Assembly: GCA_029563075.1 (NCBI GenBank)
Contig: JAKQTN010000052.1
Location: 1-64,000 of the forward strand
Origin: Pseudomonadota bacterium
GTDB lineage: Bacteria > Pseudomonadota > Gammaproteobacteria > Burkholderiales > Methylophilaceae
DNA: 64,000 nucleotides
Reading direction: 5' to 3'
Position numbers and translations under genes: made by a program. Under the pieces are notes generated by a model, which was not told the DNA's origin, made no database searches, and worked only from the letters and a program-made list of their open reading frames with translations. This document shows positions 1 through 42,086 of this stretch, in pieces. Numbering within the stretch: the stretch's first letter is position 1; each line of letters starts with the position of its first letter.

Positions 1-199
1 CTATTGTCAACATCTATTAGATATTCTTCTGTTCTCTGCAGTTAGTACAAGTTAAGCAATAATATTTGTTGACCGCTTTGTCCCATGTAGTTACCGAATA
101 CAACAACTTGGCAACAGGCGGCTATTGGCCGCTTTGGGCCCACTTCAGCCTGATAGTCTATCAATTTGGTCGCCATAAAGCGGACTGAAAAAATAACAC
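1..199. other. Non-coding stretch left of the integrase
   Basis: I see no credible coding sequence or RNA gene here. Several stop codons interrupt every frame. It lies downstream of the integrase stop and is probably element DNA. Confidence 0.4.
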
Positions 200-769
200 T
201 TAAATCATATTAACTGCCTGCCGCTTCATTTCATCGTTAACATCAATATATAACTGTGTCGTTGCAATACTTCTATGCCCAGCGAGTGACTGCAACACCC
301 TAACGCCAATGCCTTTACTAGCAAGTTGTGTAATGAAAGTTCTTCGTCCACTGTGGCTTGTTGCTCCATCAATTCCAGCTTTTTCAAACATTCGCCTGAA
401 TTTTTGGGCTAGTGCATTTGGATTAAAACTCCCATTACTCTTTTGGGAGAAGAAAAGTGGTGCGTTCAGGTTTCTAATAGGTATTGTTGATACATAATCC
501 GCTAACTCTTGGCTCAATCTTGACCCTATCATTACAGTTCTACCTTTATCACCCTTAGTCTGTTCTGGCTTTAGTCTGATTTCATCTTTGATTTTTCCAT
601 CAACGGAAAGTACATCACCGATTTTTATAGCTGCAATTTCACCAACACGCATCCCAGACCAAAAACTGAGCAACACCATTGCCCTATCTCTTGAATAATA
701 CCTACCTCCTGAAACAGATTTCAAAACATGTTCCAACTCGGCAATTTTTAGTGTTTTAGCTTGCGGCAT
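200..769 (-). CDS. Tyrosine recombinase/integrase, catalytic-domain-only form
   Basis: This is a 189-residue site-specific recombinase of the phage integrase/XerC-D family, which cuts and rejoins DNA through a covalent 3'-phosphotyrosine. The catalytic set is visible: Arg41 in SGMRVGE, Lys72 or Lys75 in TKGDKGR, His139 and Arg142 in SHSGRRTF, His165 in LAGHRS, and the nucleophile Tyr174 in TQLYID. Family members are usually about 300-400 residues with an N-terminal SAM-like core-binding domain. That domain is absent, so this is either a minimal integrase or a 5'-truncated one. It sits at the edge of the element that splits comM and is transcribed away from the junction, which makes it the likely integrase of that element. 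The ATG start at 769 faces a palindromic control region. Confidence 0.88.
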   Translation of the reverse strand: MPQAKTLKIAELEHVLKSVSGGRYYSRDRAMVLLSFWSGMRVGEIAAIKIGDVLSVDGKIKDEIRLKPEQTKGDKGRTVMIGSRLSQELADYVSTIPIRNLNAPLFFSQKSNGSFNPNALAQKFRRMFEKAGIDGATSHSGRRTFITQLASKGIGVRVLQSLAGHRSIATTQLYIDVNDEMKRQAVNMI

Positions 770-818
770 AATTACAACTATTATAATTAAATCAAGGGGT
801 TATGTAATATAATTATTT

Positions 819-858
819 TAGAAAATGTAACTTAATTATCAGTTTGTTACATTTTCTA
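819..858. promoter_or_regulatory. 13-bp perfect inverted repeat between integrase and DUF6641-like gene
   Basis: TAGAAAATGTAAC (819-831) is repeated inverted as GTTACATTTTCTA (846-858) around a 14-nt spacer. It lies between two divergent genes. This suits a dimeric repressor operator or a recombinase/excisionase arm site. It is not followed by a T-run, so it is not a terminator. Confidence 0.6.
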
Positions 859-916
859 GGAGGGTAATTGCTTCGGCTAATAATGAACAATCAATGACTG
901 AGCATTTATGGTTGTC

Positions 917-932
917 GCAGGTAATTACCTGC
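917..932. promoter_or_regulatory. 16-bp perfect palindrome upstream of the DUF6641-like gene
   Basis: GCAGGTAATTACCTGC is a perfect palindrome 28 nt before the start codon at 960, and a ribosome binding site (AAGGAAAG) follows it. Its position suggests a transcription factor operator, possibly autoregulatory. No matching regulator gene is visible. Confidence 0.55.
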
Positions 933-959
933 TAATAATTCAATGTGAAGGAAAGTTAA

Positions 960-1397
960 ATGGCATATTTAGATGCTTTAAAAGTTGTTATTGCAGTAAA
1001 ACCTATTCAACAATCACCTATCCTTAATAGACGCGCTAGGCTGGTAATGAAACTTCAAGAGCAAATTGAGTGCGTAAAGGCTAAAACTGAAGGTCGTGAT
1101 TATTTTGTGACTAAGTGGAAGTCTATGAAAAGTGATGATGGTGTACGCACTCAATATGAAGAGAAACGTAAAATTCGCCAATGGTGGTTTAATAGTGCCG
1201 AGGGTAAGATTGTGTTTGAGGTGAAATACGCTAATAAGAGAATTGAGCTTATTAAAGGTAAAACTGGAATTGAAATTGAAAATCTTGGGGCATTAGTGTC
1301 AGCTATTGAGTTGCTAAGAAAGGCGGTTGAAAACGGAGAGCTAGACAGTGGACTGAATATTGCGGCAGGCAATTTTAGACGTACAATAGCAAAATAG
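960..1397 (+). CDS. DUF6641-like hypothetical protein of the element
   Basis: This is a 145-residue soluble protein of unknown function. It has a basic N-terminal half with an RRARLVMKLQEQI helix, a central KIRQWWFNSAEGK segment and a C-terminal helix (ALVSAIELLRKAVENGEL). This pattern matches my recollection of the DUF6641 family, often found next to integrases on genomic islands; that assignment is from memory. The start is well supported by GAAGGAAAG just before the ATG. Base composition is AT-rich like the integrase and unlike the GC-richer comM remnant downstream. It has no signal peptide, membrane segment or obvious catalytic motif. Confidence 0.7.
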   Translation: MAYLDALKVVIAVKPIQQSPILNRRARLVMKLQEQIECVKAKTEGRDYFVTKWKSMKSDDGVRTQYEEKRKIRQWWFNSAEGKIVFEVKYANKRIELIKGKTGIEIENLGALVSAIELLRKAVENGELDSGLNIAAGNFRRTIAK

Positions 1398-1437
1398 CAG
1401 GTTGGCAAGTGCTAACTTCAACAATTGACAAGCCCCT

Positions 1438-2316
1438 ATGGAAATAATTGTACACAACGTCATGATGAGCGGCCCGCCGGGCACAGGTAAAAGTATGTTG
1501 GCTTCGCGCTTTGCCGGCATTTTGCCGAGCATGACAGAAGCTGAAGCGCTGGAATCTGCCGCCATACAATCACTCAATGGCAATTACAAACTAGAAAATT
1601 GGAAGCGCAGACCTTATAGAAGCCCGCATCACACCGCGTCTGGCGTAGCATTGGTGGGCGGCGGTGGTATTCCGCGGCCGGGCGAAATTTCACTGGCGCA
1701 TCACGGCGTGCTGTTTTTGGATGAACTTCCAGAGTTCGAGCGCAAAGTGTTAGAAGTGCTGCGCGAACCGTTAGAAAGCGGCAAAATCACCATTTCGCGC
1801 GCGGCGCGGCAGGCAGATTTCCCCGCTTCGTTTCAATTACTCGCCGCCATGAATCCCTGCCCGTGCGGCTATTTGGGGCATTTCAACAATAAATGTCGCT
1901 GTACTCCTGACAACATTGCGCGCTACAAAGCCAAAATTTCAGGCCCGCTGTTAGACCGTATTGATATGCACATCGAAGTGCCCGCGCTAAAAGAAGATGA
2001 AATGACTACCGCCGCAAATGCAGAAAATTCAGAAACCATCAGAAACCGTGTAGAAACCGCGCGGGCGCTACAACTCAAACGCCAAGGCAAAGCAAATTTT
2101 GCGCTAGGCAGTTTAGAGATTGATGAATTTTGCCAGCCTGACGCCGCGGGTATGGCTTTATTAAAAGCCGCAATCTCTAAATTAAACCTGTCCGCCCGCG
2201 CCTATCACCGTATTTTAAAAGTCGCCAGAACCATCGCCGACGTTGCGGGTGAGCCCGCAATTAAGCCCGCCCACATTGCTGAAGCAGTGCAATATCGACG
2301 TGGAGATGTAAATTAA
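1438..2316 (+). pseudogene. comM: comM/yifB Mg-chelatase-like AAA+ ATPase, N-terminal half missing
   Basis: The product is the C-terminal 290 residues or so of ComM/YifB, a hexameric AAA+ helicase-type protein that drives branch migration in natural transformation. Walker A (SGPPGTGKS, residues 11-19), Walker B (GVLFLDELPEF) and the cysteine-rich MNPCPCGY...CRC segment are intact. The family is usually about 500 residues. The N-terminal Lon-S5-like domain of roughly 200 residues is absent because DNA upstream of Walker A belongs to the inserted element. The ATG at 1438 is fortuitous and has no clear ribosome binding site; an in-frame TGA at 1426 closes the frame upstream. It is probably non-functional unless precise excision restores the gene. 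Confidence 0.88.
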
Positions 2317-13936: not shown

Positions 13937-13951
13937 CTTTAATCCGGACGT

Positions 13952-13983
13952 AAAAAAAGCGAAGTAGTAACTTCGCTTTTTTT
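13952..13983. terminator. Bidirectional rho-independent terminator (purU / small lipoprotein)
   Basis: GCGAAGT (13959-13965) and ACTTCGC (13970-13976) form a stem with loop AGTA, preceded by seven A and followed by seven T, so it can stop transcription on both strands between two convergent genes. Confidence 0.9.
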
Positions 13984-13990
13984 ATTTCAG

Positions 13991-39906: not shown

Positions 39907-41367
39907 ATGGAATGGGAAGTCGTCATTGGGTTGGAAACGCATACCCAGTTAAAAACCAACACTAAAATATTCAGCGGTGCCAGCACGGCGTTTGGTGCAG
40001 AACCTAACACCCAGGCCTGCGAAGTGAGCATTGCATTGCCGGGCGTGTTGCCTGTGCTGAACAAACAAGCCGTGGAATGTGCGATTAAATTCGGGCTTGC
40101 AGTAAATGCAGAAATTGCGCGGCGCTCGGTGTTTGCGCGTAAAAACTATTTTTACCCGGATTTACCAAAAGGCTACCAGATAAGTCAGTATGAGCTGCCT
40201 GTAGTGGGTAAAGGCGCGGTGACCATTCAAGTACCGGCAGTAGGTAAAAATGCCGCGTATGAGAAAGTCATTAATATCACGCGTGCGCATCTGGAAGAAG
40301 ATGCGGGTAAATCTGTTCACGGGCTTTCTAATCAAAGCATAGAAGGCATGAGCGGCATCGACCTAAACAGAGCAGGTACGCCGTTGCTGGAAATTGTGAC
40401 CGAGCCGGATATGCGCTCTGCGGCTGAGGCAGTAGCCTATGCCAAAAAACTGCACGAGCTGGTGCAATGGATCGATATTTGCGACGGCAATATGCAGGAA
40501 GGTAGCTTCAGGTGTGACGTGAACGTGTCAGTCCGCCCAAAAGGCACGGAAAAACTGGGCACTCGGCGCGAGATTAAAAACCTCAACTCGTTCAAGTTCA
40601 TGCAACAGGCGATTGAATATGAAACGCGCTGGCAGATTGAAACACTTGAAGACGGTGGGACTATTCATCAGGCAACTGTGCTTTTTAACCCTGATACCGG
40701 CGAAACCCGTGTCATGCGGAGTAAAGAAGAAGCCAACGATTATCGCTACTTCCCTGATCCTGACTTGTTGCCATTAGAAGTGACAGAGGCGGATAAAGCG
40801 CGTGTAAAAGCAGAAATGCCGGAGCTGCCGGAAGTGATGAAAGCAAGGTTTGAAGCGGAATACGGCTTGACCAGTTACGATGCGAGCACATTGACCTCAA
40901 GTCGTGATCTGGCAGATTATTTTGTAGCAACCGTCAACGCGGGTGCCGACGCCAAGCCTGCCGCGAACTGGGTGATGGGCAGCGTTTCAGCAAAATTGAA
41001 TGCAGAAGATAAGCCAATCAATGCTTCGCCGGTGACAGCCTTGCAGTTGGCGCAACTGCTCAAGCGTATTAATGACAACACAATTTCAAACAATGCTGCC
41101 AAGCAAGTGTTTGAGGCGATGTGGGCGGGTGAAGTTGATGTGGACGCGATTATTGAGAAACTTGGCCTCAAACAAGTCTCCGACAGCGGCGCGATCGAAG
41201 CGATGATTGATGAGGTGTTAGCCGCAAACCCAGCCATGGTGGCCGAGTTTAAGGCGGGCAAGGAAAAAGCCTTTAATGCGCTAGTGGGTCAAGCCATGAA
41301 AGCCTCAAAAGGTAAAGCCAACCCGGCGCAGGTGAATGAAATCTTGAAGAAAAAACTAGCTAATTAA
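39907..41367 (+). CDS. gatB: Asp-tRNA(Asn)/Glu-tRNA(Gln) amidotransferase subunit B
   Basis: GatB binds the mischarged tRNA and performs the ATP-dependent amidation. The 486-residue protein has the GatB start [39 protein letters not shown], the HLEEDAGKS motif and a C-terminal YqeY-like tRNA-binding domain. Its last residues KKLAN are encoded by the left half of a 30-bp palindrome shared with the convergent DUF4124 gene, and the two stop codons overlap in TTAA (41364-41367). Confidence 0.98.
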
Positions 41368-41380
41368 TTAGCTAGTTTTT
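41351..41380. terminator. 30-bp perfect palindrome, bidirectional terminator over two stop codons
   Basis: The arms AAAAACTAGCTAAT and ATTAGCTAGTTTTT flank a TA centre, making a perfect 30-bp palindrome. A-run and T-run edges give a U-tail in both directions. It covers the end of gatB and of the convergent DUF4124 gene, and both proteins therefore end in KKLAN. Confidence 0.85.
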
Positions 41381-42086
41381 TAGTTGGCTGGTCCGGTGTT
41401 ACCGCACCAGCAGCGGTCGGTGCTGCGGTGAGTGTGGCCTCTAGCGAGCCTGCTCCAGAATCAACGCTGGCGGGCTGTTTTAATGCGATAAATCTTTCTT
41501 TATCCTCTGCGTAGCGCTTACGCGTGGCTTCCATGTTCAATTTACGTTGAGCCATTTGTTTGTCGATATTGGCAGACTCTATTTTTGACAGCCGTAATTC
41601 CTCACTTAAGTAAGGCGGCAGCGGCTTGTTGCGGGCGCGAAAACTTTGTGCAGTCTTGTTGTTGCGCGCGGCTCTATTCGCGGTGCTTATTTTTTGCTGT
41701 GAAAGTGCCTGGATAGCAGCCAAGTCAGTTTGTAAATTGCGGTCACGTGCCAAATCAATCTCTTCAGCATTGGTGTAAGAGGCCAATAAAATTTTGTCTT
41801 TACGTTCTTTTTCAAGTTTTTGTTGATCCAAAACTTCATTTTTTTGGTCAATTTTTACATTGTGTTTTAGCACAATACCCTGGCCATTCATCTCAGAGTT
41901 ATTACGCCCGGCTTCCTGCGCAGGCAATTTGTCGCCATAATGCGTCACGCCGTTACTATCCACCCATTTTACGATTTTTTTACCGCTTCCAGCACTTGAG
42001 GACGCGGCTTCATTTTTATTGGCAGCATGCGCAATATTCGAAATTGCAAATGCGGCCGCAATTAAAGTAAAAAGTATTTTTTGCAT
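41364..42086 (-). CDS. DUF4124 domain periplasmic protein
   Basis: The 240-residue protein has a Sec signal peptide ([21 protein letters not shown], cleaved around residue 21) and a DUF4124 domain (about 36-60, [20 protein letters not shown]). A long Lys/Arg/Gln-rich helical region (about 85-205) looks like a coiled coil, and the Ala/Pro-rich tail is short. DUF4124 proteins are common in beta- and gammaproteobacteria with no assigned function. It converges with gatB and shares its terminator and stop bases. Confidence 0.88.

Follow-up and report, generated by a model that had tools for sequence, protein, structure and literature searches.

Close to the left end of this contig, a comM (yifB) reading frame opens near its ATP-binding loop and is preceded by AT-rich DNA with a recombinase gene, which raises the question of what interrupted comM here and by means of which enzyme. 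The window, by which we mean the whole 64-kb stretch of DNA that was analyzed, coincides at position 1 with the start of contig C31, in a genome (G000) assembled into 82 contigs (2.11 Mb). Its C-terminal comM reading frame (1438-2316, plus strand) matches the TIGR00368 profile over positions 212-499 (E 6.7e-118), and the P-loop, or Walker A motif, SGPPGTGKS starts about 10 codons into it; the initial annotation had the ComM frame beginning at the ATP-binding loop, and the profile match, starting at position 212, bears this out. GC content is 0.34-0.41 up to position 1500 and about 0.50 beyond. The AT-rich DNA upstream of comM does carry the two genes described in that annotation, a minimal tyrosine recombinase of 189 aa (200-769, minus strand; Phage_integrase, E 2.1e-25) and a DUF6641 protein of 145 aa and unknown function (960-1397, plus strand; PF20346, E 1.5e-9; phrog_31551, E 9.4e-19).

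The 5′ fragment of comM, which was expected elsewhere if an element had split the gene, lies on another contig of the same genome. A TIGR00368 search of the G000 contigs found profile positions 1-217 at C44:2917-3576 on the minus strand (E 3.9e-67), and the only two other matches had E-values of about 1e-4. In same-genus genomes comM is uninterrupted, and a relative with intact comM, G160, keeps both flanks together on its contig C5 in the order metH-comM-ubiK-glnK-amtB. In G000, metH follows the comM 3′ half on C31 and ubiK-glnK-amtB stand beside the 5′ half on C44. Since these flanking genes are split as they are arranged around the intact gene, C44 and C31 would flank a single locus. The proposal of an integrative element within comM at the Walker A motif is supported by these findings. 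The right-hand part of the element is window 1-1461, which has the contig end at 1, is AT-rich, ends in an inverted half-site, and has a right end also seen in another genome (G120); the left-hand part, on the other side of the same comM insertion, is C44:1-2923. Together they make up 4.4 kb of assembled element. No contig joins C44 and C31, and the middle of the element is missing from the assembly. The break at C44 is attributed to a 141-bp repeat (C44:1-141; L006) that recurs, identical at the starts of C7 and C8 and over 140 bp at C28. By eye, this repeat is IS21-like.

Comparison of the junctions places the boundary between element and host at 1461-1464 and not at the start of the reading frame at 1438. 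Read in the sense of comM, the junction is CACAGCGTG-AT-GACGTTGTGTACAATTA on the N side and TAATTGTACACAACGTC-AT-GATGAGCGG on the C side. The element half-site of attR, AATTGTACACAACGTC (1446-1461, plus strand), is an inverted match to C44:2907-2923; it is followed by the predicted crossover core AT (1462-1463, plus strand) and then by the host part of comM (1464-2316, plus strand), which opens just before the P-loop SGPPGTGKS and joins the C44 5′ part in frame. The ATG and codons that open the 3′ reading frame (1438-1461, plus strand) are derived from the element; they are in frame and may or may not be translated. The idea of a split protein, with an AAA+ half made from this ATG, was set aside, its sole support being the in-frame position.

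The ends of the element are inverted repeats which, when joined, give a perfect 34-bp palindrome centered on AT, the predicted attP. It is self-complementary at 34/34 positions in G000 and at 32/34 in the equivalent element of a second genome, G159, while 34-mers across the 64-kb window score at most 32/34. Near-perfect 34-bp palindromes occur in the window at about 41349-41382 (32/34) and 13951-13984 (30/34), and are perhaps terminators. The G159 junctions read CATAGTGTG-AT-AATGTTGTGTACAATTA and TAATTGTACACAACGTT-AT-TATGAGTGG, and the crossover was placed at AT because these are the only bases they have in common. At the G000 junctions, identity in direct orientation is limited to ATGA (4 bp). 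A direct repeat of part of 1450-1490, anticipated at the far end by the initial annotation, was accordingly not found; the ends are inverted instead. A short 2-bp core, the lack of a long direct repeat and a pseudo-palindromic attP are the anatomy of a large serine recombinase (LSR) element.

The half-site pattern ATNAYGTTGTGTACAATTA occurs five times in 187 family genomes, always at a comM P-loop junction (two in G000, two in G159 and one in G120), and 0 times in the reversed control. Other P-loop insertions, in G173, in Accumulibacter (L064) and in an alphaproteobacterial locus (L065), have other half-sites and the cores TT, CT, and CT, respectively; read by codon, these cores coincide in codon and in base positions with that of G000. 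Their predicted attP symmetry is lower (28/40, 28/34, and 28/38). AT at the core position is uncommon, being present in 3 of 38 comM loci without a P-loop insertion (L032, L042, L047), a set that includes one locus (L147) with an in-frame stop elsewhere. As for a free attP, viral_contigs gave no exact match to the palindrome when its 8 central bases were left free, and window 1-1475 had no match among phages.

An LSR gene stands at the junction. It encodes 577 aa (C44:1142-2875, minus strand), adjoins the comM 5′ half, and has Resolvase (PF00239, E 3.7e-17), Recombinase (PF07508, E 7.7e-13), and zinc-ribbon (PF13408, E 4.6e-7) domains. With its start codon at C44:2875 and the core at C44:2924-2925, 48 bp separate the two, so that the integrase gene lies next to the junction. 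A directionality factor was not found. In G159 the element is complete on a single contig, with about 4.8 kb between the comM halves holding an LSR, a small ORF, and an IS21 pair. The G159 LSR is 52% identical to that of G000, and the two elements have the half-site type and the AT core in common; the complete G159 element has no tyrosine recombinase. When flanks are joined at the core, an open comM frame is restored in 5/5 genomes (536 codons in G000, 524 in G159, 509 in both L064 and L065, and only 365 in G173, whose comM has a second insertion), which is the precise empty site expected of an LSR element. In a decay test, pN/pS of both G000 comM halves was similar to that between intact relatives.

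Taken together, these observations make it very probable that the window element was inserted into the comM P-loop by the LSR, through a palindromic attP at AT and in either orientation, with the tyrosine recombinase and DUF6641 genes as accessories. The LSR would recombine the predicted attP, AATTGTACACAACGTC-AT-GACGTTGTGTACAATT, with an attB consisting of comM P-loop coding sequence, CACAGCGTG-AT-GATGAGCGGCCCGCC, with strand exchange at the central AT. This would cut comM just before Walker A, and precise excision would restore the gene. From sequence we infer that the LSR is active and that the element can excise.

The initial annotation had named the minimal tyrosine recombinase as the inserting enzyme, which would make the LSR its cargo. 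The recombinase gene does lie about 690 bp from the right end of the element, and minimal tyrosine recombinases accompany LSRs at two other loci (L065 and L067, the former 34% identical to the one in the window) and are present in an island in comEC (G177) where no LSR was found. However, the complete G159 element has equivalent ends and no such gene, no long direct repeat is seen at the junctions (the bases in common are 4 bp in G000 and 2 bp in G159, where a tyrosine-recombinase element should have a direct repeat at its ends and the gene in every complete copy), and the gene occurs in many islands without a G000-type LSR (19/187 family genomes against 7/187 for the LSR, G000 being in both). 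With an LSR at the junction and ends of the LSR type, the tyrosine recombinase was rejected as the integrase, and its having inserted the element is extremely unlikely. A DDE transposon, either Tn7-like or making a 2-bp target duplication, could instead have inserted and brought the LSR along. Perfect terminal inverted repeats would suit such an element, Tn7-like islands in comM are known (PMC11472951), and an interrupted comM in G140 has a TnsA-like fragment. Against this, the complete G159 element has no DDE transposase apart from its IS21 pair, the bases common to both junctions number 2 (G159) or 4 (G000) and lie at the center of a palindrome, and unrelated genomes again have an LSR gene beside the junction. 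A scan of proteins from the assembled 4.4 kb of the G000 element, the middle of which is missing, found no Tns or Tni genes, and none were found in G159 apart from IS21. Neither the genes nor the junctions seen support a Tn7-like origin, and insertion by a DDE transposon is very unlikely.

The split could also reflect misassembly or faulty binning, with C44 and C31 coming from different loci or strains. The assembly is in 82 contigs, and the locus is broken over two of them; in addition, G160 has an intact comM together with a contig carrying an interrupted comM start, as would be found in mixed strains. On the other hand, matching inverted half-sites are present on both C44 and C31, gene order in G000 agrees with that of the intact G160 locus, and single contigs carry the equivalent arrangement in G159, G173, L064, L065, and G806. 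An artefact is therefore an exceedingly improbable explanation, and insertion by the LSR is the reading kept here.

The tyrosine recombinase and the DUF6641 gene, for their part, look like an accessory module. The minimal tyrosine recombinase was matched in 19/187 family genomes, G000 included (E 1e-20). In tblastn comparisons, 9 of 11 other genomes had a DUF6641 match in the same stretch (in G104 at one of its three loci), and G177 and G042 had no match in the stretch. By eye, integrase-like genes of greater length (335-424 aa) are also present in several of these stretches. The recombinase recurs in islands without a G000-type LSR. On G160 contig C30 (L089), the pair lies beside the first ~35 codons of comM. 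As intact comM is on C5 of that genome and the interrupted start on C30, the assembly may contain two strains. The island interrupting comEC in G107 contains the pair together with an LSR, and in G177 the tyrosine recombinase occurs alone, 2 kb from an interrupted comEC, with no LSR found. Searches with the DUF6641 protein gave no match among phages and one among plasmids. Phage structural genes were likewise not found among the five proteins scanned from the assembled G000 element, whose middle is missing; PHROGs returned integrase, invertase, helicase, or unknown families. Relatives of the LSR were not found in viral_contigs.

The element appears to occur both ways round. In G000 the LSR end of the element adjoins the comM 5′ half, with the DUF6641 end at the 3′ half. 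In G120, which belongs to another genus, the 71 bp after the comM 5′ half agree with the DUF6641 end of G000 at 70/71 positions; the DUF6641 end thus sits at the opposite comM junction, from which the element is taken to be reversed. The G159 element, judged by the position of its LSR, is also reversed relative to G000. This evidence comes from three loci (G000, G120, and G159), the G120 part being a 71-bp contig end. No LSR was found in G120, a genome that is 82% complete. Studies of other LSRs report that orientation is determined solely by the central 2 bp and that mutated symmetric cores allow both (PMC3556126, PMC3783163). With a symmetric core and symmetric arms, the enzyme would not distinguish the two orientations, and insertion could thus occur either way round; on the predicted sites, the symmetric AT core predicts both orientations, as observed. 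A search of the open-access literature found no natural symmetric core with both orientations. If the AT core is functional, it would be a natural counterpart of the symmetric cores mutated into the A118 integrase. However, P-loop LSRs with asymmetric cores also vary (L064 is in comM sense, and L065 and G173 are antisense), so that across distant LSRs, either-way insertion is not unique to AT cores.

To place this enzyme among its relatives, the LSR was searched against family genomes (187, E 1e-20; 7 matched, G000 included), order genomes (3/399, 1e-90), class genomes (2/369, 1e-60; G000 among the matches in both), and genome_contigs (6 loci). Counting G000 once, 16 distinct LSR loci resulted, of which 12 are in comM or comEC; another 2 are probably in comM, and the last 2 are in neither gene. 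As the search started from a comM LSR, 12/16 is no unbiased target rate. In seven of the loci the insertion is at the comM P-loop and the 5′ end of the LSR gene lies at the junction (G000, G159, G173, G806, L064, L065, L069), the LSR gene being in comM sense in G000 and L064 and antisense in the remaining five (G159, G173, G806, L065, L069). Three are at comM codon ~35 (G168, G063, G419) and two at comEC codon ~280 (G107, G452); in L069, G419, and G452, one comM or comEC half is seen. The probable cases are L066, where about 1 kb separates the LSR 3′ end from the comM P-loop half, and G033, where comM runs from codon ~25 with foreign DNA upstream and the LSR is on another contig. Neither gene was matched in the LSR loci L067 and L068. 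Among 36 phage and plasmid records that matched, five regions from the plasmid collection were examined, and none (0 of 5) had comM or comEC in the stretch. A tree of 19 LSRs groups G000, G159, and L064 in one clade (100/100) and the two comEC LSRs in another (100/100); the remaining comM LSRs join neither these clades nor each other with good support, and several branches are long. comM may have been acquired repeatedly as an LSR target.

Insertions into the same genes take other forms as well. comM was matched in 113/187 family genomes (E 1e-30), and in seven of them (G065, G068, G073, G080, G136, G172, G173) it is split at profile position ~304, at an LFLDE motif, by insertions of 28-31 kb where both halves are on one contig. 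In G065 (L057/L058) the genes beside the comM 5′ half encode proteins of 768, 709, 174, and 472 aa, of which the 472-aa one is a tyrosine recombinase, and the cargo is for metal transport. A tyrosine-recombinase gene does therefore adjoin a comM split in relatives, but at a different site and of a different type. G173 has two comM insertions (L017; G173:C1:1028893-1064307), a 6-kb LSR element at the P-loop with SIR2-like and HerA-like genes and a second of 28 kb at profile position ~304. Other comM LSR elements carry restriction-modification genes (L018 and L064; MmeI-type and an N6 methylase). In G140 (L051), comM lacks profile positions 217-281 and is accompanied by the TnsA-like fragment and a phosphorylase-superfamily protein, with no LSR match; in G137, the contig ends where the comM 5′ half reaches the P-loop. 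Three genomes, G107 (L015/L125), G452 (L063), and G177 (L130), have comEC interrupted at one and the same position (HLM-S/R-I, codon ~280), with an LSR beside it in the first two. G107 has lost most of the 3′ part of comEC, and its island carries an NCBIfam DS8 anti-phage protein. A search of the open-access literature found no LSR in comEC, although interruption of comEC by transposable elements is described in Piscirickettsia (PMC12955456).

We put only slightly better than even chances on the broader reading, in which an orientation-indifferent LSR with a palindromic attP and an AT core would belong to a set that repeatedly lands in the uptake genes comM (two sites, at codons of conserved motifs) and comEC (a single position), with accessory genes common across LSRs and targets and the integrase as a swappable part. 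It is rated no higher because LSRs with asymmetric cores also vary in orientation.

LSR elements in comM have already been published, and the G000 element adds one more. The initial annotation described comM islands as mainly Tn7-like; such islands are indeed known, but the statement is incomplete, since LSR insertions into comM have been reported (PMC10083194, PMC9203015). According to the available text of Durrant et al. (2022; PMC10083194), diverse LSRs integrate into a “magnesium chelatase/ATP-dependent protease” gene, which accounts for 12.4% of predicted site-specific LSRs, and competence genes are enriched among LSR targets. The target gene is the same as here; in that text the codon, the orientation, and the G000 element are not given, and the word “palindromic” occurs 0 times. 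In the sr1WO prophages of Wolbachia, insertion by a serine recombinase splits the Mg-chelatase gene, with one half on either side, like G000 (PMC9203015); sr1WO is a phage genome, whereas no phage structural gene was seen in the assembled parts of the G000 element, from which the middle is missing. The integrase of Listeria phage A118, which targets comK, is also an LSR with a competence-gene target and a 2-bp core that alone sets orientation (PMC3556126), but its native core GG is asymmetric and therefore gives one orientation, whereas the G000 core AT is symmetric. Tn7-like AbaR islands and elements with a CF65_00446-type integrase interrupt comM too, using different recombination enzymes (PMC11472951, PMC4774983).

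ComM is reported to help integrate heterologous DNA, and in Acinetobacter transformation is one to two orders of magnitude lower when ComM is lost (PMC11472951). It has been argued that islands in comM benefit the element because they lower transformation (PMC11472951, PMC4774983), and they are discussed as a case of intragenomic conflict (PMC4774983). In G000, dprA and comEC are intact, and since comM is interrupted just before Walker A, there would be no intact ComM while the element is present. Loss of transformation in the host is plausible by analogy; we infer a transformable host in which transforming DNA is integrated more weakly and an element that gains from the block. For this locus, the enzyme behind the comM insertion is corrected to an LSR, with exact predicted att sites for a new member of that class. 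More broadly, insertions into comM and comEC by different LSRs offer material on whether such elements aim at transformation or find in conserved codons a reliable landing place.
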